21,706 nucleotides of DNA. Origin: a virus. The notes below the pieces were generated by a model. That model was not told where the DNA came from, searched no databases, and saw only the letters and a list, made by a program, of their open reading frames with translations. Numbering within the stretch: position 1 is the stretch's first letter; each line of letters starts with the position of its first letter. Of the stretch, positions 481-21,706 are shown piece by piece. The stretch lies in IMG/VR virus record IMGVR_UViG_3300032238_001596, positions 1 through 21,706 of that record. One strand, written 5' to 3'. Made by a program: the position numbers and the translations under genes.

Positions 481-1179
481 ATGGCCACTAATTCCAATAA
501 CGATAATGTAGTTAATTCTCTAATTTCTCAGGATTCAAAAGATATCTCAAACGAATCATCTTTAAAATTGTTTAAGGAAATTAAACCTGATGATTTACCC
601 CTAATTCCTTTACCACCTGACAATTGCAGCGATATGAACTATCCTCAATTTATAGAGGTAAGATGTTCAATTTGTAGCTCTCACCTTAGAGATTTAGCAG
701 AACATGTTTATCTTGAAAGTGGTAAAAAACCTCAATCTGTAATTAAGTTTTTTGAAAAGTATTACGGTGCTAAGCTTAACTGGATGCAAGTTCAGACGCA
801 CATGGAAACTCACTGTGACTTTAAAAAACTTATCACTTCTGGACTTAAAAGTTATGAGCAAAGAGAAGATTTAATTGCTCCTTGGATGTTCAGGGAAAGC
901 CAACTTGCTCTTACTGCTCTCATGGTAGAGCTTGATGATGTAAGAGGAATTGATTGTAGCAAGAATAATGATCTAAAACTTAAACGTGCTGCAATGGTTG
1001 AGAAATTGATTAGTAAGATTCTTGACATCAAAGAAAAAAGAGATAATCAATCCTCATATGCATTTAATATATTTGAGATTCTTATGGATTTGCATGATAG
1101 GTTTGATAGCGAGCATGACAAAAGATTAATTCGTGATCAATTGAAAAAGCTCAGGGAAAAATTGACAGATAATCAATGA
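481..1179 (+). CDS. Putative terminase small subunit (zinc-finger/HTH type)
   Basis: 232 residues. The central part has C62-x2-C65 and, about 40 residues later, H107-x3-H111 (then C112), around helices of the form RDLAEHVYLESGKKPQSVI. This resembles the Cys2-His2 plus helix-turn-helix layout seen in many putative phage terminase small subunits (family knowledge, not searched here). The stop overlaps the start of the large terminase (ATGA, 1176-1179), so the two are translationally coupled and the position fits TerS, which recognises phage DNA and hands it to the motor. The C-terminal third is helical and charged, as expected for oligomerisation. ATG 481 is the first start after the terminator, but no clear Shine-Dalgarno precedes it. 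The name rests on context plus motif; another DNA-binding protein is possible. Confidence 0.65.
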   Translation: MATNSNNDNVVNSLISQDSKDISNESSLKLFKEIKPDDLPLIPLPPDNCSDMNYPQFIEVRCSICSSHLRDLAEHVYLESGKKPQSVIKFFEKYYGAKLNWMQVQTHMETHCDFKKLITSGLKSYEQREDLIAPWMFRESQLALTALMVELDDVRGIDCSKNNDLKLKRAAMVEKLISKILDIKEKRDNQSSYAFNIFEILMDLHDRFDSEHDKRLIRDQLKKLREKLTDNQ

Positions 1180-3302
1180 GAAAAAACGCATCAAAAGCTA
1201 CACTATCAGCAGCTGAATTAAAACAACAATTAATTCAACAAGCAAATCAAGCAGCAGATAAGTTTAAAGATTCTGAATATGCTGAAGAGTTTGCAGATTC
1301 AATCACGCCTAGTGTTAGAAGTGAAGTAGCCCCACCTTTAAAACCTGAAAAGTCAAGATTCAACCCAGACCAAATAGTTGATATTGTTACTTTTATTGAG
1401 CATCCATATTTTTGTAACTTGAAACCATATCCATTACAAAGACTTATTCTTAAATGTTTTTATATGGGCCAGGAAGGTAACACTAATTTAGAGATTCAAG
1501 ATATTCCCGAAGAGGAAAGAATTGGATGCAAGGGATGTATTTGGGAGTTCGTAAAGAAAAGCGAAATAGAATCAGTCCAAAAAAGAAAAGAAAACAGACC
1601 ATTTAAAGCTTCATTTGCTGTTACTAATTCTCCATGTTTGACTTGTTCTAGAATGGATCCTGATGTAATACAAGACAGATATATAGCATCAAAAGAAGAT
1701 GCCACAAATCCAGATGCAGAAAAGAAAATTATTCAATTAGAAGAAAGACCTTTGATTGATAATTTTCAAACAGAAAAAGACTTATTTTATTCTGAAGAGT
1801 TTGATCCTAAATTACGCATGCAGATTCTTCATAAATGCAACAGTAGATTTAAGTTTGAAGAACTTGTTTTAGTGCTTGGTAGACGTTCAGGTAAGTCATT
1901 CCTTGTTTCAGCTATTGCACTTTATGAACTATATAGATTAATTTCTATGGGTCATCCTCAAGCAAGATATGGTCTTATGGAGTTTGATCAAATTGTTCTT
2001 CTTAATGTAGCTAGAAATGAAGAACAAGCCAAGAATGCTATCTTTGCTAAACTCAAACAAACAGTATTAGCATCACCATTTTTTGAGCCTTATATTGGAA
2101 AAGATACTGAACTTGAAATGCGCTTTTTTACCGAGCATGACAGAAAAGAAAATGAAAGAAGAGAAGGTTTAGGTCTCAATTTATTCTCAGGAAGTTTAGT
2201 TCTTAGATGCGGTTCAAGTAGCGCTTCAGGCTTAGTTGGTCTTACTTGTTGGTGTATTATCATGGACGAAATTGCTGCTATGGCTGGTGATTCTCCTGAT
2301 AGTGGGTTAGATTATGCATTATATAATGATTTGAAACCATCTTTAGCTACATTTGGTAAAGATGGAAAAATGATGATGCTTTCCAACCCTAAAGGACCAA
2401 TTGGATTATTATATGATTTACACGAAAATAGACAAGACGACCCAACTACTCTTGTCATGCGTGGTCCTACATGGTTAGTAAATCCTAATATTGATAAAGA
2501 CTTCCTTGAATCTGAGAAAAAGAAAAACCCTACCGAATATCAGATGCAATATGGTGCTGAGTTTGGTGCATCTTCATCTGATCCAATGTTCCCAGAAGAT
2601 GCAGTGAGTAGATTTTTCTCATCACTTTCAATGGTTCCTAGAAGAGAGCACGGAGATAGGATGGTTGAATATTTCTGCCATCTCGATCCAGCAAGAACAT
2701 CTGACTATTATGCACTAGCCGTAGCACATCATGAATTAATGTATGGGAAGTTTGGGACAGATGGAAAGCCTTTAAGAAGAATTATAATTGACCATATTCA
2801 CTTCTGGGCACCTATAACCAAAAACCAACCTATTCCTGAAAAATCTGTTGAAGACTATGTTCTTGATTTACATAGAAAATTCAGATTTAAACAAGTTAGT
2901 ATAGACCAATGGAACTCTCAATCTTCAGTTATTAAATTGAGATCATTAGGTGTTCCAATTGTTGAAAAACAATTTAATAAAAATTACAAAGAATCAATAT
3001 ACACTGAACTTTCACTTTTATTAAGAGAAGACAGAATTGATATTTATGATATTTCTGGTGGAACATTTAAAGATCAAAATGGAAGAGAATTTGCCCTTAA
3101 TGAAATACAAGAAGCTAAGATTCAATTCCAATTTTTACAAAAGAAATGGAAAGGAAAGAGATTTATTATTGAAGCTATGACAGGTTACAAAGACGACCTG
3201 TGTGATGCTGTAGCTGCTGTTGCTTATGAAACATTATTTAGTAAAATTGCAGACATTTTGCCACGCTCAAGGACGATAAACCTTGGCGGAAGAATAAAAT
3301 AA
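1176..3302 (+). CDS. terL: Terminase large subunit (packaging ATPase-nuclease)
   Basis: 708 residues. The motor cuts concatemeric DNA and pumps it into the prohead using ATP. Visible motifs: an adenine-type motif near residue 84 (YPLQRLIL), Walker A GRRSGKS at 235-241, Walker B IIMDE with D364-E365, then the RNase H-like nuclease with acidic residues D504 (HLDPARTSDYY), D577 (SIDQWNS) and the cluster D673/D674/D677 (KDDLCDA). All catalytic positions look intact and the ORF is uninterrupted. Unusually, about 140 residues separate the adenine motif from Walker A and carry two CxxC pairs (C118/C121, C154/C157), suggesting a zinc-binding insertion. The start overlaps the upstream stop as ATGA. 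This is the most secure landmark of the window. Confidence 0.96.
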   Translation: MRKNASKATLSAAELKQQLIQQANQAADKFKDSEYAEEFADSITPSVRSEVAPPLKPEKSRFNPDQIVDIVTFIEHPYFCNLKPYPLQRLILKCFYMGQEGNTNLEIQDIPEEERIGCKGCIWEFVKKSEIESVQKRKENRPFKASFAVTNSPCLTCSRMDPDVIQDRYIASKEDATNPDAEKKIIQLEERPLIDNFQTEKDLFYSEEFDPKLRMQILHKCNSRFKFEELVLVLGRRSGKSFLVSAIALYELYRLISMGHPQARYGLMEFDQIVLLNVARNEEQAKNAIFAKLKQTVLASPFFEPYIGKDTELEMRFFTEHDRKENERREGLGLNLFSGSLVLRCGSSSASGLVGLTCWCIIMDEIAAMAGDSPDSGLDYALYNDLKPSLATFGKDGKMMMLSNPKGPIGLLYDLHENRQDDPTTLVMRGPTWLVNPNIDKDFLESEKKKNPTEYQMQYGAEFGASSSDPMFPEDAVSRFFSSLSMVPRREHGDRMVEYFCHLDPARTSDYYALAVAHHELMYGKFGTDGKPLRRIIIDHIHFWAPITKNQPIPEKSVEDYVLDLHRKFRFKQVSIDQWNSQSSVIKLRSLGVPIVEKQFNKNYKESIYTELSLLLREDRIDIYDISGGTFKDQNGREFALNEIQEAKIQFQFLQKKWKGKRFIIEAMTGYKDDLCDAVAAVAYETLFSKIADILPRSRTINLGGRIK

Positions 3303-4339: not shown

Positions 4340-5446
4340 ATGAAATATGATTATCTCGTAATTGGAGCCGGATTATTCGGCTCCATTTTTGCATATGAAG
4401 CAAATAAAGCTGGAAAGAAAGTTTTAGTATTAGAGAAAAGATCTCATATTGGTGGAAATTGTTTTACTGAACCATATGCTGACTATCATATACATAAATA
4501 TGGCCCTCATGTTTTTCATACATCTAATAAAAAAGTTTGGGACTATATTAATCAATTTACAGAGTTCAATAATTTCACTCTAAGATGCAAGGCTAATGTT
4601 AAAGGAAGGATTTATTCTCTTCCTATTAATTTGATGACAATATATCAAATATGGCCAGAAGTAAACACCCCTGAGTTTGCTAAAATCAAAATTGCTAATG
4701 AGGTTGTATTTAATAAAGATCCACAAAACTTTGAAGAATATTGTCTTTCTAAAGTTGGAAAAACATTATATGAAATGTTCTTTTATGGATATACAAAAAA
4801 GCAATGGGGCAAAGATCCAAAAGATTTACCAGCATCATTAGCAAAAAGACTTCCGATTAGATTTGATATGAACGATAGATATTATCCTGATCATGATATC
4901 TATGAAGGAGTTCCAGTTAATGGATATACAGCTATATTTGAAAAACTACTTGAAGGGATTGAAGTATTCACTAACACAGATTTTCTTAAAGATAAAGAGT
5001 TTTGGGAATCAGAATCTCGCAAAGTTGTCTATTCTGGTCAAATTGATAGTTATTTTGACTATTGCTTTGGTGATTTAGAATATCGCTCGTTATCATTCAA
5101 AGATTATCAAATGGGTGTTGATTTTCAAGGCACAGCTCAAATCAACTATCCACAGCCAAATATAGCTTGGACAAGAATCATTCAGCACAGACACTTTGGT
5201 TTGGGAAAATCTGAAAAAGAATGGGTTACTTTTGAACACCCTGAAGATTATCAGAGAGGCAAAGAACCATTTTACCCTATTAATGATCAAAGAAATAATG
5301 ATCTTTATAATTTATATAAAAATCTTGCGAATGAAAAACCAAATCTTATTGTAGGTGGTCGATTAGGCAACTATAGATACTACGATATGGATATGACAAT
5401 TGCAAACGCCCTAAGTACTGTAGAAAAAGAATTAGCAGGTAAATAG
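4340..5446 (+). CDS. glf: UDP-galactopyranose mutase
   Basis: 368 residues, matching the usual length of bacterial Glf. The enzyme is a flavoprotein that interconverts UDP-galactopyranose and UDP-galactofuranose, the donor for galactofuranose-containing glycans. Visible: FAD dinucleotide fold VIGAGLFGS (G9-x-G11-x2-G14), the ERxxHIGGNC-type segment (EKRSHIGGNC), HKYGPHVFHT, GYTKKQWG at 150-157, VPVNGYTAIF, YSGQIDSYFDY, INYPQPNIAWTRIIQHRHF and the C-terminal GRLGNYRYYDMDMTIANAL. No key block is missing, so it is probably active. It sits inside the packaging/head operon, with no Shine-Dalgarno of note and no flanking repeats or terminators. Base composition resembles its neighbours, arguing against very recent transfer. 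The role could be virion glycosylation or alteration of the host surface polymer (inference). Confidence 0.96.
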   Translation: MKYDYLVIGAGLFGSIFAYEANKAGKKVLVLEKRSHIGGNCFTEPYADYHIHKYGPHVFHTSNKKVWDYINQFTEFNNFTLRCKANVKGRIYSLPINLMTIYQIWPEVNTPEFAKIKIANEVVFNKDPQNFEEYCLSKVGKTLYEMFFYGYTKKQWGKDPKDLPASLAKRLPIRFDMNDRYYPDHDIYEGVPVNGYTAIFEKLLEGIEVFTNTDFLKDKEFWESESRKVVYSGQIDSYFDYCFGDLEYRSLSFKDYQMGVDFQGTAQINYPQPNIAWTRIIQHRHFGLGKSEKEWVTFEHPEDYQRGKEPFYPINDQRNNDLYNLYKNLANEKPNLIVGGRLGNYRYYDMDMTIANALSTVEKELAGK

Positions 5447-6962: not shown

Positions 6963-7925
6963 ATGGCAGATAGAATTTTCCCAAACAAGTTTCAAGAATC
7001 TGGCTTAGATTCCGAGCTTGTTTTTACAGGTATTGATTGGGACAACTTCCAATCAAGATTGGCAGAGAAGAAAGAAGACTCTGACTCAGACGAAAAAAAC
7101 CCTGGTTTAAAAAAGCTTCTTGAAGAACTCAGCAAGAAAGAAGAGCCAAATGGCATTGACGAAAGTGAACTTAAGCGCATGGCTGGAGATGATGCCGGTG
7201 ATCCTTTCTTATATAAATTAATGAAAGATGATATCCACCCACATGGCGATCCTGACGGTGATGATGACGATGACGATGATGAAGAAGAAGATGAAGAAAC
7301 TGAAGCTTATTCCGAATTGAATAAGACAGCATCTAAAATCGTTTTTGACAATCCTAATCAAATTACAGCAGAAGCAGTTGAAGCAGCTATCGAATCTGGC
7401 AATACTAAGCTTGCAAATGCAATCTTAGCTGTAAGACATGAAAGAAGAGTCAGACTTGCTTCACAAATTGAGAACAACATCAAGACAGCTTCCGAAAACA
7501 AACTTAAGCTTGCGCAAAGAAGAGCTTACAGAGAGTCATTAGTAAGACAAGCTGAAAAGTCTGAAAAGGTTGTTCGCACAGCTTCTACAACTAAGAAGAA
7601 TGATGATTTTGTTGCAATTGCTAATTTAGATGCAAACAGCAAGAAAGTTTTTGCAGCTAAGGCATTAGCAGCTGGATTCCCACAAGAATATGTTGAAGCA
7701 ATGATCAACGAAACAGTTGCTCCAAAGAATGACAATCTTTCTGAAATCAAAGAAGTCATGGCTTCCAATATTAACCCAAATGTCAAGAAGACAGTTGTCG
7801 CTAATATGATGAAAGTTGCAAACTTAGATGCAGCAAATATCAATAGATGCAAAGACTACTGGAAGAATGAGCTTGGTTATGGCGATCCAGAATGGGTTGA
7901 CGAATTATTCGATAATAAAAACTAG
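6963..7925 (+). CDS. Hypothetical acidic/helical phage protein, probable virion or assembly protein
   Basis: 320 residues. ATG 6963 has GGAG at 6948-6951, eleven bases upstream, the same long spacing as the capsid gene. An Asp/Glu run (about residues 98-116, including seven consecutive Asp) separates a polar N-terminal third from an Ala/Lys-rich helical region containing three copies of the [KR]TAS tetrapeptide (NKTASK, IKTASE, VRTAST). The C-terminal 100 residues look like a compact helical domain ending YWKNELGYGDPEWVDELF. Acidic tract plus basic helices resembles scaffold or internal head proteins, but no family is recognised. It opens the unit after the leader at 6840-6962 and ends TAG-TAA. 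Confidence 0.8.
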   Translation: MADRIFPNKFQESGLDSELVFTGIDWDNFQSRLAEKKEDSDSDEKNPGLKKLLEELSKKEEPNGIDESELKRMAGDDAGDPFLYKLMKDDIHPHGDPDGDDDDDDDEEEDEETEAYSELNKTASKIVFDNPNQITAEAVEAAIESGNTKLANAILAVRHERRVRLASQIENNIKTASENKLKLAQRRAYRESLVRQAEKSEKVVRTASTTKKNDDFVAIANLDANSKKVFAAKALAAGFPQEYVEAMINETVAPKNDNLSEIKEVMASNINPNVKKTVVANMMKVANLDAANINRCKDYWKNELGYGDPEWVDELFDNKN

Positions 7926-11862: not shown

Positions 11863-14214
11863 ATGAGCTCTAAAGATGCACCTACATTAGCAAACGTACT
11901 TAAAACTGCAGCGCAAAATGTAACCGGAGAAAGAATAGCAAATAGTTCCATTCCAGATAGGCAATATGCTAACTCTAGAATAAGTAATGGAATGGGTCCA
12001 TCTGTTTCAAGATCAGCGAACATGGGTGGTGGTAATAATACAATGACCACCGCACCTAATTTCTATTCTCCATTCTTAACACCTACATCATTCCAAATCC
12101 CAAATGCTAGACGTGAAGTTTATCTCTGGGCAAACTGGTGGAGAAATAACGAGCCAAAGATTGCTGCTGCTATCAATTTCTATACCAATTATCCATTCTC
12201 TGGTTGGAAATTAGAGTGTTCTTCTTCATATGTTAAAGATTATTTTGAGAAGTTGACACAAAAGCTTCATTTCCAAAAATGGCTTCCTGAAATATCAAAA
12301 GTTTATCACCTTTTAGGAGATACTTTTGTACTTTTATCCTTGGACTGCCCTCATTGTCAAGGTTCAAACGTAAATGAAGATGGTCAAGATTGTACCCATG
12401 ATGGTGCAACTTGGAAATCTATTTCAATTTTAAATCCTGATAGCGTTCTTAAAACCCCAGGCATGATTGACCAGCCAGGAATGTATGCTTACAGACCATC
12501 TGCAGAAGAAATAAGAATTGTAAACGAGCGAAATCCTAAAGAATTATATGACTCCATTCCTGATGGTGTCAAGAAAATGATTATGAAAGGAGATCCAATT
12601 AAGTTAAATCCTATTTCTATTCATCACTTTAAGCATGGTTCTAACCCTTGGGAAGATTATGGCACACCGCTCATTAGACCGCTCTTTCCTACTTTAGCTT
12701 ACAAGGACAAACTAAGACAGTCACAATGGATTGTTGCTGAAAGGCATATTCTTCCAGTCAAAGTTGTTAAAGTTGGTAATGACACACGCCCTGCCTCACA
12801 AGAAGATTTAGATAGTGTTCAAGAAGAATTAGCTGCAATTGCTAACGATCCAAACTTAACTCTTGTCACTCACCATGCATTTGATTTCGATTATGTTGGT
12901 GCTTCAGGGAAAGTTCTTCAGTTAACAAATGAATATGAACTAATTGATCAAGAAATCCTTGATGGTGTTATGCTTAATAAGGCTCTCCTTAATGGTGAAG
13001 GCCCTACATATGGTAATGCTCAAGTTGGTCTTTTAGCTATGGCACAAAGACTTGAAACATTCCGTAGAGAAGTTGCACACTGGATTGAAGAATGTGTTTT
13101 CAAGCCTGTAGCTGAATGGAACGGTTTTACTGTTGAAGGCGAAAGAGGGCAAGAAGAAATTATCTACCCAACTATCAAATTTGACGACCTTCAATTAAGA
13201 GATGATACAGGCAAGCTTCAAATGTTAGTCACAGCTAACTCAAATGGAGTTATTTCAAACATGACTCTAATTGAAGCATTCGGACTTGATCCAGACCAAG
13301 AAATCGAAAGACTAAGATTTGAACAAGGTGCTAACTTTGTTCAAAATCCAGCTTTGATGAATACAGACATCAATAATGGCTTTCAATCTGGAAATGTAAC
13401 AGGTCAAGGTTTTGGAGCACCTAATCCAGCAGATATGGGTATGGGAGCACCAGGAATGGGTATGACTCCTCCACCACCAGGTGGAATGCCAGGAATGCCT
13501 ATGGCTTCAAATAGCTTTAAAAATTATAGATTAGCTTCTTCAATTGTAAACGAGATTTATTACGATAGGCTTGAAAGTTTGAATAGTTTAATCAATATGA
13601 GAACAGCTGGAAGAAGATTTAAATCTGCAGCTCATGAAGGCTTTATCAAGAGTTTATCACCAGTTTCAGGAAGAGGCTTATTGGGTTCTTTACCTGAAGA
13701 ATATGAAGGCTTTGGAACACCACTTACACCTTTAGAGTTTGGTGGTCCTAATGCTGTTGCTTATAATATATATGCGCAACAAGAACAATATCATTTTGCT
13801 AGTTCTGAAGAAACCAAAGAAGTATATGCAAAGAAAAAATTAGAAAGACCACAAGCTCAAATGTTTACTTCAATTGAGAAGAAGCTTTACGGTTTGCTAT
13901 TATCTTTAAATATGCCCTTCCCGCTATATGCTCAATATTCAGCTGGACCTACTGGAGATTATCAATTAGATGGAGCAATTCCATCATTGAGAATTGGTGT
14001 TGAAGCTGATGGTGAGATCTGGCATAACAATCCAGAAAAAATCGCTAGAGATAAAAGAAGAGATGTTGAATTAGCTGCAAATGGGTGGGTAATTCTTAGA
14101 TTTACAGATAAAGAATTAAATGATCACCCACAAGATGTTATGAATGTAATCATGCAAGCAATCAGGAAAAAGACAGGGCAATCAAGCTCAACACCTCAAG
14201 AAGAAATTATTTAA
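11863..14214 (+). CDS. Portal protein fused to a C-terminal DUF559/Vsr-like nuclease domain
   Basis: 783 residues. Residues about 80-500 resemble a phage portal, the dodecameric ring through which DNA enters and leaves the head: YLWANWWRNNEPKIAAAINF, KVYHLLGDTFVLLSLD, SILNPDSV, YGTPLIRPLFPTLAYKDKL, and the long helix region ending FRREVAHWIEECVFKPVAEW. A zinc-type cluster interrupts it (C162-x2-C165, C177-x-H179). A Met/Gly/Pro linker (525-549) leads to a second part whose last 110 residues match a PD-(D/E)XK nuclease of DUF559/Vsr type: E672 in helix 1, D703 (YQLDGAI), E714-A-D716-G with H721 (VEADGEIWH), then DKRRDVELAANGWVILRF. All expected acidic residues are present, so activity is plausible. 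The join is one continuous frame with no stop. A terminator follows. Confidence 0.88.
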   Translation: MSSKDAPTLANVLKTAAQNVTGERIANSSIPDRQYANSRISNGMGPSVSRSANMGGGNNTMTTAPNFYSPFLTPTSFQIPNARREVYLWANWWRNNEPKIAAAINFYTNYPFSGWKLECSSSYVKDYFEKLTQKLHFQKWLPEISKVYHLLGDTFVLLSLDCPHCQGSNVNEDGQDCTHDGATWKSISILNPDSVLKTPGMIDQPGMYAYRPSAEEIRIVNERNPKELYDSIPDGVKKMIMKGDPIKLNPISIHHFKHGSNPWEDYGTPLIRPLFPTLAYKDKLRQSQWIVAERHILPVKVVKVGNDTRPASQEDLDSVQEELAAIANDPNLTLVTHHAFDFDYVGASGKVLQLTNEYELIDQEILDGVMLNKALLNGEGPTYGNAQVGLLAMAQRLETFRREVAHWIEECVFKPVAEWNGFTVEGERGQEEIIYPTIKFDDLQLRDDTGKLQMLVTANSNGVISNMTLIEAFGLDPDQEIERLRFEQGANFVQNPALMNTDINNGFQSGNVTGQGFGAPNPADMGMGAPGMGMTPPPPGGMPGMPMASNSFKNYRLASSIVNEIYYDRLESLNSLINMRTAGRRFKSAAHEGFIKSLSPVSGRGLLGSLPEEYEGFGTPLTPLEFGGPNAVAYNIYAQQEQYHFASSEETKEVYAKKKLERPQAQMFTSIEKKLYGLLLSLNMPFPLYAQYSAGPTGDYQLDGAIPSLRIGVEADGEIWHNNPEKIARDKRRDVELAANGWVILRFTDKELNDHPQDVMNVIMQAIRKKTGQSSSTPQEEII
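13861..14181 (+). other. PD-(D/E)XK nuclease domain within the portal ORF
   Basis: Portal residues 667-773. The pattern E-x2-L, then YQLDGAI, then VEADG-x3-H, then D-x2-R-x3-L-x3-G-W-x-ILRF is characteristic of DUF559 and the related very-short-patch-repair fold. In that fold the Asp and Glu residues bind metal for DNA cleavage. No convincing internal ribosome-binding site precedes it, so it is probably made only as part of the portal. Confidence 0.8.
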
Positions 14215-14359: not shown

Positions 14360-17300
14360 ATGTATAGAACAGCGAAGGGAGGATCTATTACAATTAATAG
14401 CTTCCTTACCGAACAAGATAGAAATACTGCAAGAGAGCATATGCTTAAAACTGCGTCAAAACAAATGAGAGAAGCAGCAAAAATTGGCCTTCAGTCACTT
14501 TATGCGGATCCTTCAGAAGTATTAGAAAAATACAAGGATTTTGATATTGTTAAAGAAATGAAAGCTCGTAAGAATGCGAAGCTTTTATGGGTCAGAGCGA
14601 GAGCTATTGATGCAGATACAGTGAATCATAATGGCGACTATTTTTCTAAAGAAGAGTTATTAAAAGAAGCTGAAGTTAAAGGCGTAAAGATACCTGCTTA
14701 CAAAACATTCGAAGGCGTACCTATTTATACCAACCACAAGAATGATGATATTGAACAAGCAAAAGGTATGGTTGTCTACGCTGAATGGGATGAAGCAGAA
14801 AATTGCGTTTATTGTACTTTCTTTGTAGATGAAGAAGCTTATCCTGATATTGCAAGAAACATCCGTACTGGTGTAATTCATGATGTTTCTATGGGCTGTT
14901 CTGTTGCTTATGGTATTTGTTCTAAGTGTAGAAACAAAGCTTACACTGAAAAAGAATATTGTTCATGCCTTAAAAAGTGGAAAGGCAAGAAAGAAAATGG
15001 TTCAGGCAAGACAATTTACGAAGAGAACTTTGATCTTAAGTTTATTGAACTCTCATGTGTAGGTGATGGGGCTTTTGACTCCTGTGAAATCCAAGAAATC
15101 TATGATGTAGATGAGATTTTAAGTGCTGCTGGAGAAGTTGAGAAAAAAGCAAGTGAAATAATGTCTAACATTGTTATTGCACTTGATGGCGCTCCACATG
15201 ATAGTTCTAACAGAGTTGCATATGTTGAATGTTTAAGAGTTGCTGAAGACACAACTCGTACAGCTTTGAAATTGGCTCAAAATGCTGGAACCTTAGTTGG
15301 TGGAGCCTTAATGGCTTCAGAAGGCACTGGTCAGAATGCAACTGTATCAGCTGTTTTACAAGCCTTAGGAATTGACCCTGCAAGTGGTTTAAATATTTTA
15401 GACTTAATCAATTTATCACTCAATTTCCTAGAAGTTGCAGTTATGAATATGTTTGCAAGAAAAGACAATGTTGACTTAGCTCACGTTGGTAAGATTACAA
15501 AATCTATGGCTGATTTGCAAACAACAATGCAAGATATGATTGATGATGGAATTGATGTAAGTTCAGAGCAGCAACCACAAGCTATCAATCAACAACAATT
15601 ACAGCAACAACAAGCTCAACAACCTCAGGCAGCTAATCCACAAGTTGCACAGGCAAGCTATACACCTGCTGGAAATGTTGGAAGAATGATTGAACCATCA
15701 ATTTTTCAAAATGAACCACAAGGAGTTGGAGGAGCTGTTGCTTTAGCATCTTCAAACTCTCACTTGGTTTGGGCTTCTCGTGATGGTAGACGAGAAATAT
15801 TTGCAAGCACTAATCATAAAAGGGAAGATAATTCATTTATAAAATTATCCAAAGGTTTAGTGCAATTACAAGAAGCTTTAGGTGATAAATCAGCTTTAGC
15901 TTCAGTTACCAACAACGTTATTAGAGTTGCTAATGAACGAAACAAAAATATTAGAAACAATACGCCCCATACTCTAAGGGCGGAGGGAAATAATCAAATG
16001 GATCATTTTGCTAAAATAGCGCAAGAACAGCGCAAAAAATTAGCAGCCGCCGTTACAATCGATTTTAAGGTTGAGGATGGGGCTGGTAATCGTGTAGTTC
16101 TCTCAACAGACGGCACAATTACCGGATTTGCTAATGGCCAAAAAACAAATTGGGAGCCAATTTTGAATGAGCAACAATTATCTGCAATGGAATCTGGTCA
16201 AGGCGCTAGAGTTGCAGCTCAATTGTTGAATGACTTTTCAAAGACAGCACTCAGAGCACCACATGCTGATAGCACTGTAAAGGAAGAAGAGCTTTCTGAA
16301 TTACAAAAGGGCGTACCTTATAATTCATTAGCAGAAGGCTTGTCTTCACAACATAAATCATCACAAGCTGACATGACAAGAGAAGAACAACTTTCTGGAT
16401 CATTCTACAGCTCTAGAAGAGAAAATGCCAATCATGGCGAAGAAGCATTAATTAATGCTGGACTTTATGATCACAAAGTTAACGATGCTGAAGTTAAAGA
16501 AGCTTTATCAAAATTGGTTGCTCAAGCGCACAAGGGTGTTTCCGAGCAAGGCCTTAATGAAAGAATTCAAAAGTGTAGAGTGGAAGGTTCTGCTCCTGCT
16601 CATGAAATTATGGCATCTACAATCAAAGCACTAGGTAAAGCTGTTATTGCATCTTACGCAACTCCTGATGAAATTATTGAAGCATCTGCAAAGCTTGTTA
16701 AGATTGCACAACTTCCAGAAATGGTTGAAACATCTGCTGCTGGTGCTGATGTTCGTGAAGATGAAGCAGCTAAGGCTGATTTCTTTAAGAAAGAACAAGA
16801 ACCATCAAGCCCTGTTTCTGCAGTTTTAGAACAACTTGGTTCTGAAGTTTCTTCTTCAATTTCTTCTGCTGACTTAGCAGAAGCCCTTAAGGTTGCTGTT
16901 GAAGAAGGTGAAATGACCAAAGAAGGCGTTACTAGAATGGCTGAACTTCTTATGGCTGGAGCTACTGGCTCACCTGATGAAGCAATGGGTGCTCCTTCAA
17001 AATCAGAAGAGCTCAAGGCTGCTCTTCAATCAGCTGTTGATGGTGATGATAATCTTATTTCCAAAGAAGACCTTAAGTCCGCTGTATCTGCAATGGCTAT
17101 GTCATCCGAAGAAAGTGGCGCAACACCTGATGAAGTTGTTGACGAAGTTGATGGTATGGATGAGAAAGCACTTGTCGCAGCTGTTAATAAAGCTAGAACA
17201 GTTACAGCTACTAACGCTAGACTTAAGTCAAGAGCAAGAAGAGAGTTCTGGGGAGAAAGAGTTGCTTCCAAGACAGACATTTCAACTAATGTTATTGGCT

Positions 17301-18538
17301 GGCTTGCAGACTATGCAACCAATTTTAATTTATCAACAAAATCAATTGTCACAGCTGCTAAGAAGATTTGTGCTGATGGTAATTTAGCTGAAAGATTGGT
17401 CGAAAAGGCCATTGAAAGCAAGTTAAAAGCAGAAAGAACAGCATCTATGACTGTCACTCAAGAAACATCTGATGTAATCAGATTTGTCTGCAGAACTGAT
17501 GATCTTAATGGTCTTAAACCAAGTGATGAAGGCTTTGAAGATGCTTTCAGACAAAAGGCGATGGAAGTATTGCAAGGCCATGGCTTCCAAGTCGATCCTA
17601 ATACTTTTTCATTCACTGATTTAAACGTTTCAGCATATGGTGATATCACTGCATCCGTTTCATCAAGAACTTCTAAATCATTTGCTGCAGAGCAAGCTGA
17701 AGAGCCAGAAATGGGTCCTGAACAAATGGAAGAAACTCCTATTGTTATGTCAGACGCTGCAAAATATGCAAGAACAGAAAGAAGAAATAACATTTTAAAC
17801 AGATACGCACAAATGGCACCTGGAATGCAAGGAGCTGGCGCAGGCACTGCTATGCCAGAAACCATGGATGCAAATGCTATGGGTGGCCCTGGAATTAGTG
17901 CAATGACTACAGACCCAATGGCTGCTCCAGCTGAAGGTGAAGGCGATGACATGGACGCTATTAGCGAGCCTGGTAAGAAGAAGCCTTTTGGAGTAGTTTG
18001 TCCAAGTTGTGGTAGTACAAATACAAACGTATCTGGATTAAATGCAACATGTAAGGCATGCGAAACTGAATACAAGATTGAAATGAGCTTAACAATTGTT
18101 TCTCCTGGTACTTTAGAAGGTTCTGACACAGAAAATGAAATGCCAGAAGAAGAACCAGAAGCCCCAGTAGGCGGCCCTATGGGCGCTCCGGGTGCAATGG
18201 CTGGCGGTGCTCCACCTCCACCACCAGCTCCAGGCGCTCCGGGTGCTGGCGCTCCAATGCCAGGTATGCCTGCTATGGCAAGCCATAAAGCAATGTTTAG
18301 ATTGGCAACTACAGTTGATGCAGATGTATATCTCGCATCAGCCCAAGAAGGTTTCACAAGAACATCTTCTAAGAGAATGCCAATTGGTATGGTCTGCCCA
18401 AGTTGTGGAAATAGACAGGCTCATAAGGTCAAAGATACATCTTTCTGCCATGAGTGTGGAAATATTTCTAAAACAACTGTTACAGCTAACAAGAAAAATC
18501 CAACTAAACTTGACGTTACAATTACTTGGATTGATTAG
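14360..18538 (+). CDS. Head maturation protease fused to a very large scaffold-like region with zinc ribbons
   Basis: 1392 residues. GGAG at 14344-14347 lies 12 bases before ATG 14360. Residues about 65-250 resemble phage prohead proteases: LLWVRARAIDADTVNHNGDY, then GVPIYTNH with H126, then GVIHDVSMGCSV with S177, a 51-residue His-Ser gap like that of HK97-type proteases, then a Cys cluster (C187/C190, C201/C203) and FIELSCVGDGAFDS. Such enzymes degrade the inner scaffold and trim capsid proteins. The remaining 1100 residues are mostly helical and charged, with a Gln-rich run near 400, a Pro/Gly/Ala linker (1271-1308) and two zinc ribbons (C1214/1217/1231/1234 and C1346/1349/1363/1366), one either side of the linker. 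An internal Shine-Dalgarno and Met547 suggest a nested scaffold product. At this length it is far larger than typical head proteases. Confidence 0.82.
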   Translation: MYRTAKGGSITINSFLTEQDRNTAREHMLKTASKQMREAAKIGLQSLYADPSEVLEKYKDFDIVKEMKARKNAKLLWVRARAIDADTVNHNGDYFSKEELLKEAEVKGVKIPAYKTFEGVPIYTNHKNDDIEQAKGMVVYAEWDEAENCVYCTFFVDEEAYPDIARNIRTGVIHDVSMGCSVAYGICSKCRNKAYTEKEYCSCLKKWKGKKENGSGKTIYEENFDLKFIELSCVGDGAFDSCEIQEIYDVDEILSAAGEVEKKASEIMSNIVIALDGAPHDSSNRVAYVECLRVAEDTTRTALKLAQNAGTLVGGALMASEGTGQNATVSAVLQALGIDPASGLNILDLINLSLNFLEVAVMNMFARKDNVDLAHVGKITKSMADLQTTMQDMIDDGIDVSSEQQPQAINQQQLQQQQAQQPQAANPQVAQASYTPAGNVGRMIEPSIFQNEPQGVGGAVALASSNSHLVWASRDGRREIFASTNHKREDNSFIKLSKGLVQLQEALGDKSALASVTNNVIRVANERNKNIRNNTPHTLRAEGNNQMDHFAKIAQEQRKKLAAAVTIDFKVEDGAGNRVVLSTDGTITGFANGQKTNWEPILNEQQLSAMESGQGARVAAQLLNDFSKTALRAPHADSTVKEEELSELQKGVPYNSLAEGLSSQHKSSQADMTREEQLSGSFYSSRRENANHGEEALINAGLYDHKVNDAEVKEALSKLVAQAHKGVSEQGLNERIQKCRVEGSAPAHEIMASTIKALGKAVIASYATPDEIIEASAKLVKIAQLPEMVETSAAGADVREDEAAKADFFKKEQEPSSPVSAVLEQLGSEVSSSISSADLAEALKVAVEEGEMTKEGVTRMAELLMAGATGSPDEAMGAPSKSEELKAALQSAVDGDDNLISKEDLKSAVSAMAMSSEESGATPDEVVDEVDGMDEKALVAAVNKARTVTATNARLKSRARREFWGERVASKTDISTNVIGWLADYATNFNLSTKSIVTAAKKICADGNLAERLVEKAIESKLKAERTASMTVTQETSDVIRFVCRTDDLNGLKPSDEGFEDAFRQKAMEVLQGHGFQVDPNTFSFTDLNVSAYGDITASVSSRTSKSFAAEQAEEPEMGPEQMEETPIVMSDAAKYARTERRNNILNRYAQMAPGMQGAGAGTAMPETMDANAMGGPGISAMTTDPMAAPAEGEGDDMDAISEPGKKKPFGVVCPSCGSTNTNVSGLNATCKACETEYKIEMSLTIVSPGTLEGSDTENEMPEEEPEAPVGGPMGAPGAMAGGAPPPPPAPGAPGAGAPMPGMPAMASHKAMFRLATTVDADVYLASAQEGFTRTSSKRMPIGMVCPSCGNRQAHKVKDTSFCHECGNISKTTVTANKKNPTKLDVTITWID
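15998..18538 (+). other. Candidate nested in-frame scaffold translation unit
   Basis: Within the protease ORF, GGAGG at 15982-15986 (context AAGGGCGGAGGG) lies 11 bases before an in-frame ATG at 15998, the same spacing seen at the capsid gene and the 6963 gene. Translation from here would give an 846-residue protein beginning MDHFAKIAQEQRKKLAA, without the protease domain. The codons just upstream encode a polar linker-like stretch. Lambda C/Nu3 is the established example of a scaffold made by an internal start in a protease gene. Confidence 0.5.
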
Positions 18539-21097: not shown

Positions 21098-21706
21098 ATG
21101 TCAATGATTAAAAGAAATACTAATGAGCAAAGAGAAACCATCATTGCGATGGCTCTTGAGTCTGCTGAAGGCAGAACAGCTCTTGCACAAGCAATGGTTG
21201 AGCCAATCAAGACCTCCCTTATGTACCAAGCAATTGGTCGTAAGCTCTTGATGGTTGACGAACTCCCACAAGGCGCTCTTGCTCGTTACGAGAGAGACGT
21301 TGCAGTAAAGTCCTATGTCATTCCTAAGCGTGGTGGCGTTCCATCAGCTGAAGTTGAAGCAGAAGAACTTCTCGTTCCAACAATTGAATTAGCTGCACAT
21401 CCTCAAATCAGACTTAATGAAATCAGACAAAGAAGATTCTACATTGTCGATAGAGCTCAAGTTCGTGCTAAGGACTCCCTCCAACGCCAAGAAGATACAG
21501 AAGTCTTCAAGGTCATCAACGCTGGTGTTCCTACCGATCAATCCATCGCTGTTTCCGGTACTCTTCAACCAGAGAACATCAACCTTGCGTTGACCCTCAT
21601 CGAAGAGCACGAACTCATCGGTGCTAAGGTTGTTCTTCACCCACAACGCTACAAGGATATCAGAAACTGGGGTAAGGAATTCTTCGATGAGGCAACTCAA
21701 AGAGAT
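21098..21706 (+). CDS. Major capsid protein, 3' end outside window
   Basis: 203 residues are visible from ATG 21098, preceded by AAGGAG (21081-21086) with 11 bases between; the frame is open to the window edge. The sequence resembles HK97-fold capsid proteins of myovirus-like phages: SLMYQAIGRKLLMVDELPQG, YVIPKRGGVPSAEVEAEELL, ELAAHPQIRLNEIRQRRFYI, then a long helix segment (KDSLQRQEDTEVFKVINAG) and HELIGAKVVLHPQRYKDIRN with WGKEFFDEA. Codon use is clearly biased to C-ending Leu, Ile and Thr codons compared with the rest of the window, as expected for the most abundant virion protein. Position right after the protease, core and decoration-like genes supports the call. Confidence 0.85.
   Translation, partial: MSMIKRNTNEQRETIIAMALESAEGRTALAQAMVEPIKTSLMYQAIGRKLLMVDELPQGALARYERDVAVKSYVIPKRGGVPSAEVEAEELLVPTIELAAHPQIRLNEIRQRRFYIVDRAQVRAKDSLQRQEDTEVFKVINAGVPTDQSIAVSGTLQPENINLALTLIEEHELIGAKVVLHPQRYKDIRNWGKEFFDEATQRD

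Follow-up and report, generated by a model that had tools for sequence, protein, structure and literature searches.

The portal gene and its surroundings

The window, by which we mean the whole 21,706-nucleotide stretch of DNA that was analysed (a virus record), carries at positions 11863..14214 (+) one uninterrupted ORF with an ATG start and a product of 783 amino acids. The portal core of this protein (wing, stem, clip and crown) is encoded at 12040..13344 (+, residues ~60-494), solved portals aligning to residues 76-445 with VIA-align and the crown helices being expected at residues ~449-494. Behind it come a flexible Gly/Pro/Met/Ala linker (13375..13512, +, residues ~505-550), a less conserved spacer with a low-confidence fold (13513..13842, +, residues ~551-660) and a DUF559/Vsr-like nuclease domain of the PD-(D/E)XK type (13843..14178, +, residues ~661-772). 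The spacer contains the motif YRxAS, joined in the near clade by KSAAHEGF...PVxGRG. Glycine makes up 35% and proline 15% of the first 60 residues of the tether, and in relatives 88-191 amino acids separate the end of the portal from the start of the nuclease. As position 13420 is the start of residue 520, the interval that the first-pass annotation had singled out corresponds to the linker plus the tail.

Portal_Mu (PF06074 in Pfam) matches residues 240-471 (E 3.2e-10, 40.3 bits against a cut-off of 23.9) and PHROG portal family 16240 matches residues 50-427 (E 1.8e-39); together with the predicted portal fold described below, these matches bear out the initial reading of this region as a portal. 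Among annotated portals, gp14 of Bacillus phage G comes nearest, with 32% over residues 42-495. In the same protein DUF559 (PF04480) matches residues 695-767 (E 1.5e-8, 34.9 bits against a gathering cut-off of 20.6), and this profile scores above its cut-off in all 22 portal-tail members (34.9-39.3 bits versus 20.6). A portal and a DUF559/Vsr-type nuclease are thus combined in one polypeptide, an architecture of which we are practically certain. The description given by the first-pass annotation, namely an uninterrupted ORF with a portal-like region, a linker and a PD-(D/E)XK domain, proved accurate, and all the residues that it named are present in the sequence.

The genes around this ORF are those of a head gene cluster. 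The terminase large subunit (TerL) is encoded at 1176..3302 (+), with intact Walker A (GRRSGKS) and Walker B (IIMDE) motifs and with conserved candidate nuclease-domain aspartates (~D504, D576 and D673/D676); the TerL of relatives likewise keeps the Walker A/B motifs and the nuclease-domain aspartates. The gene next to the portal gene (14360..18538, +) encodes a 1392-residue protein whose N-terminal region resembles head maturation proteases (PHROG 18299 at residues 86-242), and, judging from this resemblance, it is possible that the protein is a processor of head proteins. An HK97-fold major capsid protein gene, cut off by the end of the window (21098..21706, +), confirms the cluster. With TerL, protease-like and capsid genes around it, the portal gene therefore lies in an ordinary head gene cluster, and it is the portal itself that is unusual.

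Other features of these neighbours deserve mention. The 1392-residue protein has a long middle part and C-terminal cysteine pairs resembling zinc ribbons, and past its own Gly/Pro linker it carries an [FY]RxA[ST] motif like the one found past the portal linker at residue 555. In three relatives (L031, L052 and L065) the protease-fusion ORF downstream of the portal is longer (1634-1815 amino acids), and its matches break at about residue 180, pointing to an intein or another insertion within the protease region. Between the terminase and portal genes of the window (4340-5446) lies a gene for UDP-galactopyranose mutase (GLF, E 5.8e-67; PHROG 9677, E 7.8e-117), a sugar-metabolism enzyme that is unexpected in a head gene cluster.

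Fold and catalytic residues of the tail

An AlphaFold2 model of the tail, built from an alignment of 28 tails (mean pLDDT 74, the nuclease part mostly 77-94), has an alpha-beta-beta-beta-alpha-beta-alpha nuclease core. Foldseek and VIA-align place three structures at the top of its matches: the DUF559 protein 3hrl (Z 11.9, rmsd 1.9 over 93), the homing endonuclease I-Bth0305I (3r3p, Z 11.6) and Vsr (1cw0, Z 9.5, rmsd 2.2 over 100 residues). Two of them, 3hrl and 3r3p, were also recovered when PDB sequences were searched with a profile. Structure prediction and structural matches to 3hrl, 3r3p and 1cw0 thus agree on the PD-(D/E)XK fold that had been proposed from the letters of the sequence.

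The putative active site is made up of E672 in the first helix of the nuclease (13876..13878, +), D703 of the PD-(D/E)XK motif (13969..13971, +) and the segment E714-A-D716-G...H721 (14002..14025, +). An alignment of 41 full-length sequences, made up of the window and 40 distinct near relatives, shows no variation at E672, D703, E714, D716, G717 or H721. Across 83 sequences spanning the clade, E672, H721, D730, R733, D734, W742 and R746 are invariant, position 716 is D or E (E in two rows), and D703 and E714 are kept in every row except that of L379, which is split by an intein lying exactly between E714 and residue 715; the aligned segment of that row begins past the intein, so that D703 and E714 fail in the alignment. 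The catalytic residues are fixed more strictly across the clade than the remainder of the nuclease domain, and the tail is very probably a catalytically active nuclease.

Occurrence and inheritance of the fusion

Queries for searches of IMG/VR were the whole protein, its portal and nuclease parts taken separately, and wider alignments; the resulting loci yielded 112 distinct portal ORFs, of which 88 are full-length. The search for other portals with such a tail, which the first-pass annotation had proposed, was successful: the nuclease is present in 82 of the 88 distinct full-length portals, the six without it being four phage-G-type portals, Rctr197k and L052 (in-frame stop). Because queries containing the tail could bias this count, loci obtained with portal-only queries were counted separately; here the tail is present in 26 of 29 distinct full ORFs, the remaining three being of the phage G type. 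A phage-G-type portal (L115, ORF from 5701, +, 1016 amino acids) bears a different C-terminal extension of ~450 amino acids.

Two separate genes with a frame error at the junction would have been another explanation of the ORF, and related phages speak against it, as in 82/88 distinct full portals the reading frame runs through the junction, and the stop of L052 is isolated. This stop is a single in-frame TGA (~7678-7680) in the Gly-rich linker, behind which the nuclease part continues in frame, and L111, a near relative of L052, is open across the linker. The TGA may be a sequencing error, a real truncation or a site of readthrough; an alternative genetic code need not be invoked, the other genes of L052 reading about equally well in table 11. 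As the fusion is found in dozens of independent contigs, assembly error and chance can be excluded.

Each of the 15 nuclease-portal genomes or fragments (52-379 kb) contains exactly one DUF559 match, always in the portal frame, and there is one portal per genome in 11/11 genomes. DUF559 was absent throughout the three phage-G-type records tested. The full-protein profile found no match in bacterial and archaeal genomes, where the nuclease profile found seven loci only. The fusion was not found in the annotated phage collection either: the portal matches listed from annotated phages end near residue 499, and the DUF559 matches there belong to stand-alone, helicase or methylase-neighbour genes.

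In phylogenetic analysis the nuclease portals all fall on one side of a branch with an SH-aLRT value of 97, which corresponds to one change, in a quick tree whose rooting is unsure because the outgroup Rctr197k sits on a long branch; loss of the tail in the phage G line is possible. Distance matrices of portal and nuclease are strongly correlated (r 0.94, with 0/999 permutations as high), so that domain swapping is not detectable. Rough dN/dS estimates, the synonymous sites being near saturation, are ~0.015-0.1 for the nuclease, ~0.02-0.08 for the portal and ~0.1-0.22 for the linker. Purifying selection on the nuclease is thus strong, similar to that on the portal core, with dN/dS lower than in the linker. 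The nuclease tail is an old and conserved trait that became fixed a single time, in the common ancestor of a wide clade of large phages.

Predicted position of the nuclease relative to the head

The terminase docks at the clip of the portal, outside the head. In the full-length AlphaFold2 model (mean pLDDT 53.8, with low confidence in the crown and linker) the portal fold with wing, stem and clip is recognizable, and solved portals match residues 76-445 of the model with Z values of up to 18 (VIA-align). Residues 70-454 of T4 gp20 align to residues 81-445, and the tail comes afterwards. The crown of portals is inside the head, as stated in a passage of PMC9958956, and GFP placed on the C-terminus of T4 gp20 was found in the prohead interior, such proheads still packaging DNA, according to the account of T4 in a section of PMC10893049. 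As the tail follows the crown, the crown is inside and the T4 fusion is interior, we infer that the nuclease would lie in the head lumen. It would presumably stay attached to the portal.

Possible roles of the nuclease tail

Beyond the crown, the flexible Gly/Pro/Met linker would let the nuclease domains hang in the head lumen, where up to twelve of them might surround the inner mouth of the DNA channel. There, while DNA is packaged or the head matures, they could perform a housekeeping task on the phage's own DNA, candidate substrates being irregular DNA (mismatched, nicked, branched or broken) or a genome end in need of processing. We tentatively prefer this reading, that of a nuclease tethered in the head lumen for housekeeping DNA processing in packaging or maturation, while giving it somewhat less than an even chance. 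Uniform vertical inheritance is typical of housekeeping enzymes, unlike polymorphic warfare effectors. Such inheritance, along with selection about as strong as that on the portal, favours processing of the phage's own DNA and leaves delivery to the host as the main rival. The action on host or competing DNA suggested by the first-pass annotation is weakened by the same uniform, vertical and non-polymorphic pattern.

There is a precedent in T4, where endonuclease VII occurs in association with the packaging proteins and frees DNA that has stalled at the motor, according to part of PMC10893049 and to Golz and Kemper 1999 as cited in a passage of PMC9958956. Since a nuclease in the lumen would encounter DNA only once this has been translocated, debranching of DNA stalled outside would be beyond it unless it acted before head closure. 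Against a packaging role, the tail nuclease would have access to the phage's own genome; no uniform or shared DNA methylase was found in the large genomes with the two methylase families tested. An argument from a missing resolvase was also considered and gave a mixed picture with RuvC, Endonuclease VII and RusA as the families tested (RusA-like in up to four, Endonuclease VII in one), and since other resolvases occur sporadically in these phages, it is not a clean one.

T4 internal proteins and the ejection proteins of jumbo phages enter the host, and the tail, once freed by the head protease, might similarly exit with the genome and cut host or competing DNA in the new cell. Its predicted place past the crown, inside the head, would suit this, and since a protease-like gene lies immediately downstream of the portal gene, the tail may be cut off. 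The prohead protease of the giant phage SPN3US cleaves the portal at AxE, as described in a section of PMC10052503, and A-H-E is conserved in the spacer of the near clade. The cut in SPN3US, however, removes an N-terminal propeptide and not a C-terminal tail (same section of PMC10052503), and A-H-E is absent from the L043/L048/L065/L052 group, with no equivalent seen in distant-clade tails. A protease site shared by the portal spacer and the downstream protein (AxEGF) was considered and rejected, being found in the window and not conserved in relatives. With no common self-protection methylase in the two families tested, and with a strictly vertical and uniform inheritance unlike that of anti-host effectors, we consider delivery with the virion unlikely. 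The tethered nucleases might instead act as a checkpoint, cutting foreign, unmodified or satellite DNA on its entry into the head and leaving phage DNA alone to be packaged stably. Their location at the inner mouth of the channel would be well suited to this, and the modification-dependent enzymes PvuRts1I and AbaSI are among the structural relatives of the tail; these matches are weak, however (Z ~6-7), and the two methylase families tested revealed no modification system common to these phages, which makes such a checkpoint very unlikely. In more general terms, it is quite unlikely that a ring of nucleases at the portal's inner mouth inspects entering DNA in this lineage of big phages and cuts what is foreign or defective.

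As the nuclease sits on a component of the packaging motor, it could also be thought to replace the terminase or headful nuclease, and assistance in headful cutting was among the roles first suggested for it. For this the tail would be wrongly placed with respect to the shell, lying past the crown inside the head with the terminase at the outside clip, and a terminase devoid of nuclease was rejected, TerL of the window and of relatives keeping both the Walker motifs and the nuclease-domain aspartates; the tail is therefore unlikely to replace the terminase cut, and we regard replacement as hardly credible. Other portals of the superfamily have C-terminal extensions that are not nucleases, phage G and Rctr197k having Gly/Pro-rich tails of other content, and the tail studied here might in the same way be a catalytically silent DNA-binding or structural element that organises DNA at the crown. 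The stricter fixation of its catalytic residues across the clade argues against this, and we find it highly improbable. It is also conceivable that the working form is a free nuclease made from an internal translation start, as an in-frame ATG with a Shine-Dalgarno-like stretch occurs in 49/81 linkers and a stop codon separates the two halves in L052. Codon-shuffled linkers, however, give 51.8 +/- 3.5, so there is no excess of such starts, and L111 and other relatives are open, making a free form extremely improbable.

Relation to known portals and nucleases

Portals are among the most conserved of phage machines and are usually seen as gates and signal transmitters. With a portal chain that is itself a nuclease, either DNA would undergo processing on the inner face of the gate or the portal would serve as carrier of an injected enzyme, and either role, if true, would be new for portals. 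The tail also makes it possible to recognise, at the sequence level, a widespread group of uncultured phages that are related to phage G. The protein shares its fold, its sequence and its place among terminase, protease and capsid genes with the portals of tailed phages (PF06074, PHROG 16240, phage G gp14), but in phage G and its relatives the nuclease tail is absent. That no portal of this type had been described, as the first-pass annotation believed, agrees with our searches of open-licence PMC papers, where no portal with a nuclease, DUF559 or Vsr domain was found, an earlier description being possible; the relevant passages of a comparative review of jumbo phages do not mention the fusion.

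With DUF559/REase_MTES_1575 proteins (PF04480, PF18741; for example NGO0050, 3hrl) the tail shares its sequence family, the PD-(D/E)XK fold and the E..D..ExDG motif. The known members among the matches listed are stand-alone, helicase-linked or methylase-adjacent, and none is a portal tail. The Vsr mismatch endonuclease (1cw0, 1vsr) has a fold in common with the tail, but the tail remains far below the cut-off of the Vsr family model TIGR00632 (17.4 bits versus 97.85). VsrA of Caulobacter, which also belongs to DUF559, has been connected with DNA damage in a cell, as reported in a passage of PMC12907096. The catalytic-domain fold is also shared with I-Bth0305I, an EDxHD homing endonuclease (3r3p). 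The suggestion that the fusion is a domesticated homing nuclease holds as far as this closeness of fold goes, and it is possible that there was a homing-nuclease ancestor long ago, though no trace of one is seen in these sequences; the rest of the suggestion does not hold, as the domain is a DUF559 member, is not mobile, has one copy per genome and is co-inherited with the portal. Neither the intron or intergenic location nor the sporadic, mobile distribution of the homing type was found, the domain being always a portal tail with one change in the tree.

T4 endonuclease VII, associated with the portal gp20, and the HNH proteins of packaging motors likewise place a nuclease beside the portal during packaging. 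Those are separate proteins with other nuclease folds, whereas the tail nuclease belongs to the portal polypeptide itself and, by homology, would be inside the head. The MuF-fused toxins of phage heads, as described in part of PMC3482391, are comparable in that a head protein, encoded close to the portal, carries an enzymatic domain at its C-terminus. They are polymorphic, in contrast to the one invariant domain type of the portal-nuclease protein, for which Pfam and PHROGs gave no match to a MuF domain.

Inteins

The ORF of L379 (from 4642, +) contains an intein of ~365 amino acids inside the active-site motif (IE|C...SHN|CDGAIWH). Splicing would restore an intact motif. Portal genes of the distant clades carry many intein-like inserts, which recur at a few sites, with up to three or more per gene and ORFs of up to 1841 amino acids (L114, L181, L188, L190, L192, L233/L376, L288, L292, L296-L299, L303, L322, L324, L326, L327, L334, L374 and L379). 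Interruptions of the same sort affect TerL in the genomes L042, L103 and L181, where its ORFs are ~1050-1085 amino acids long and the matches are split.
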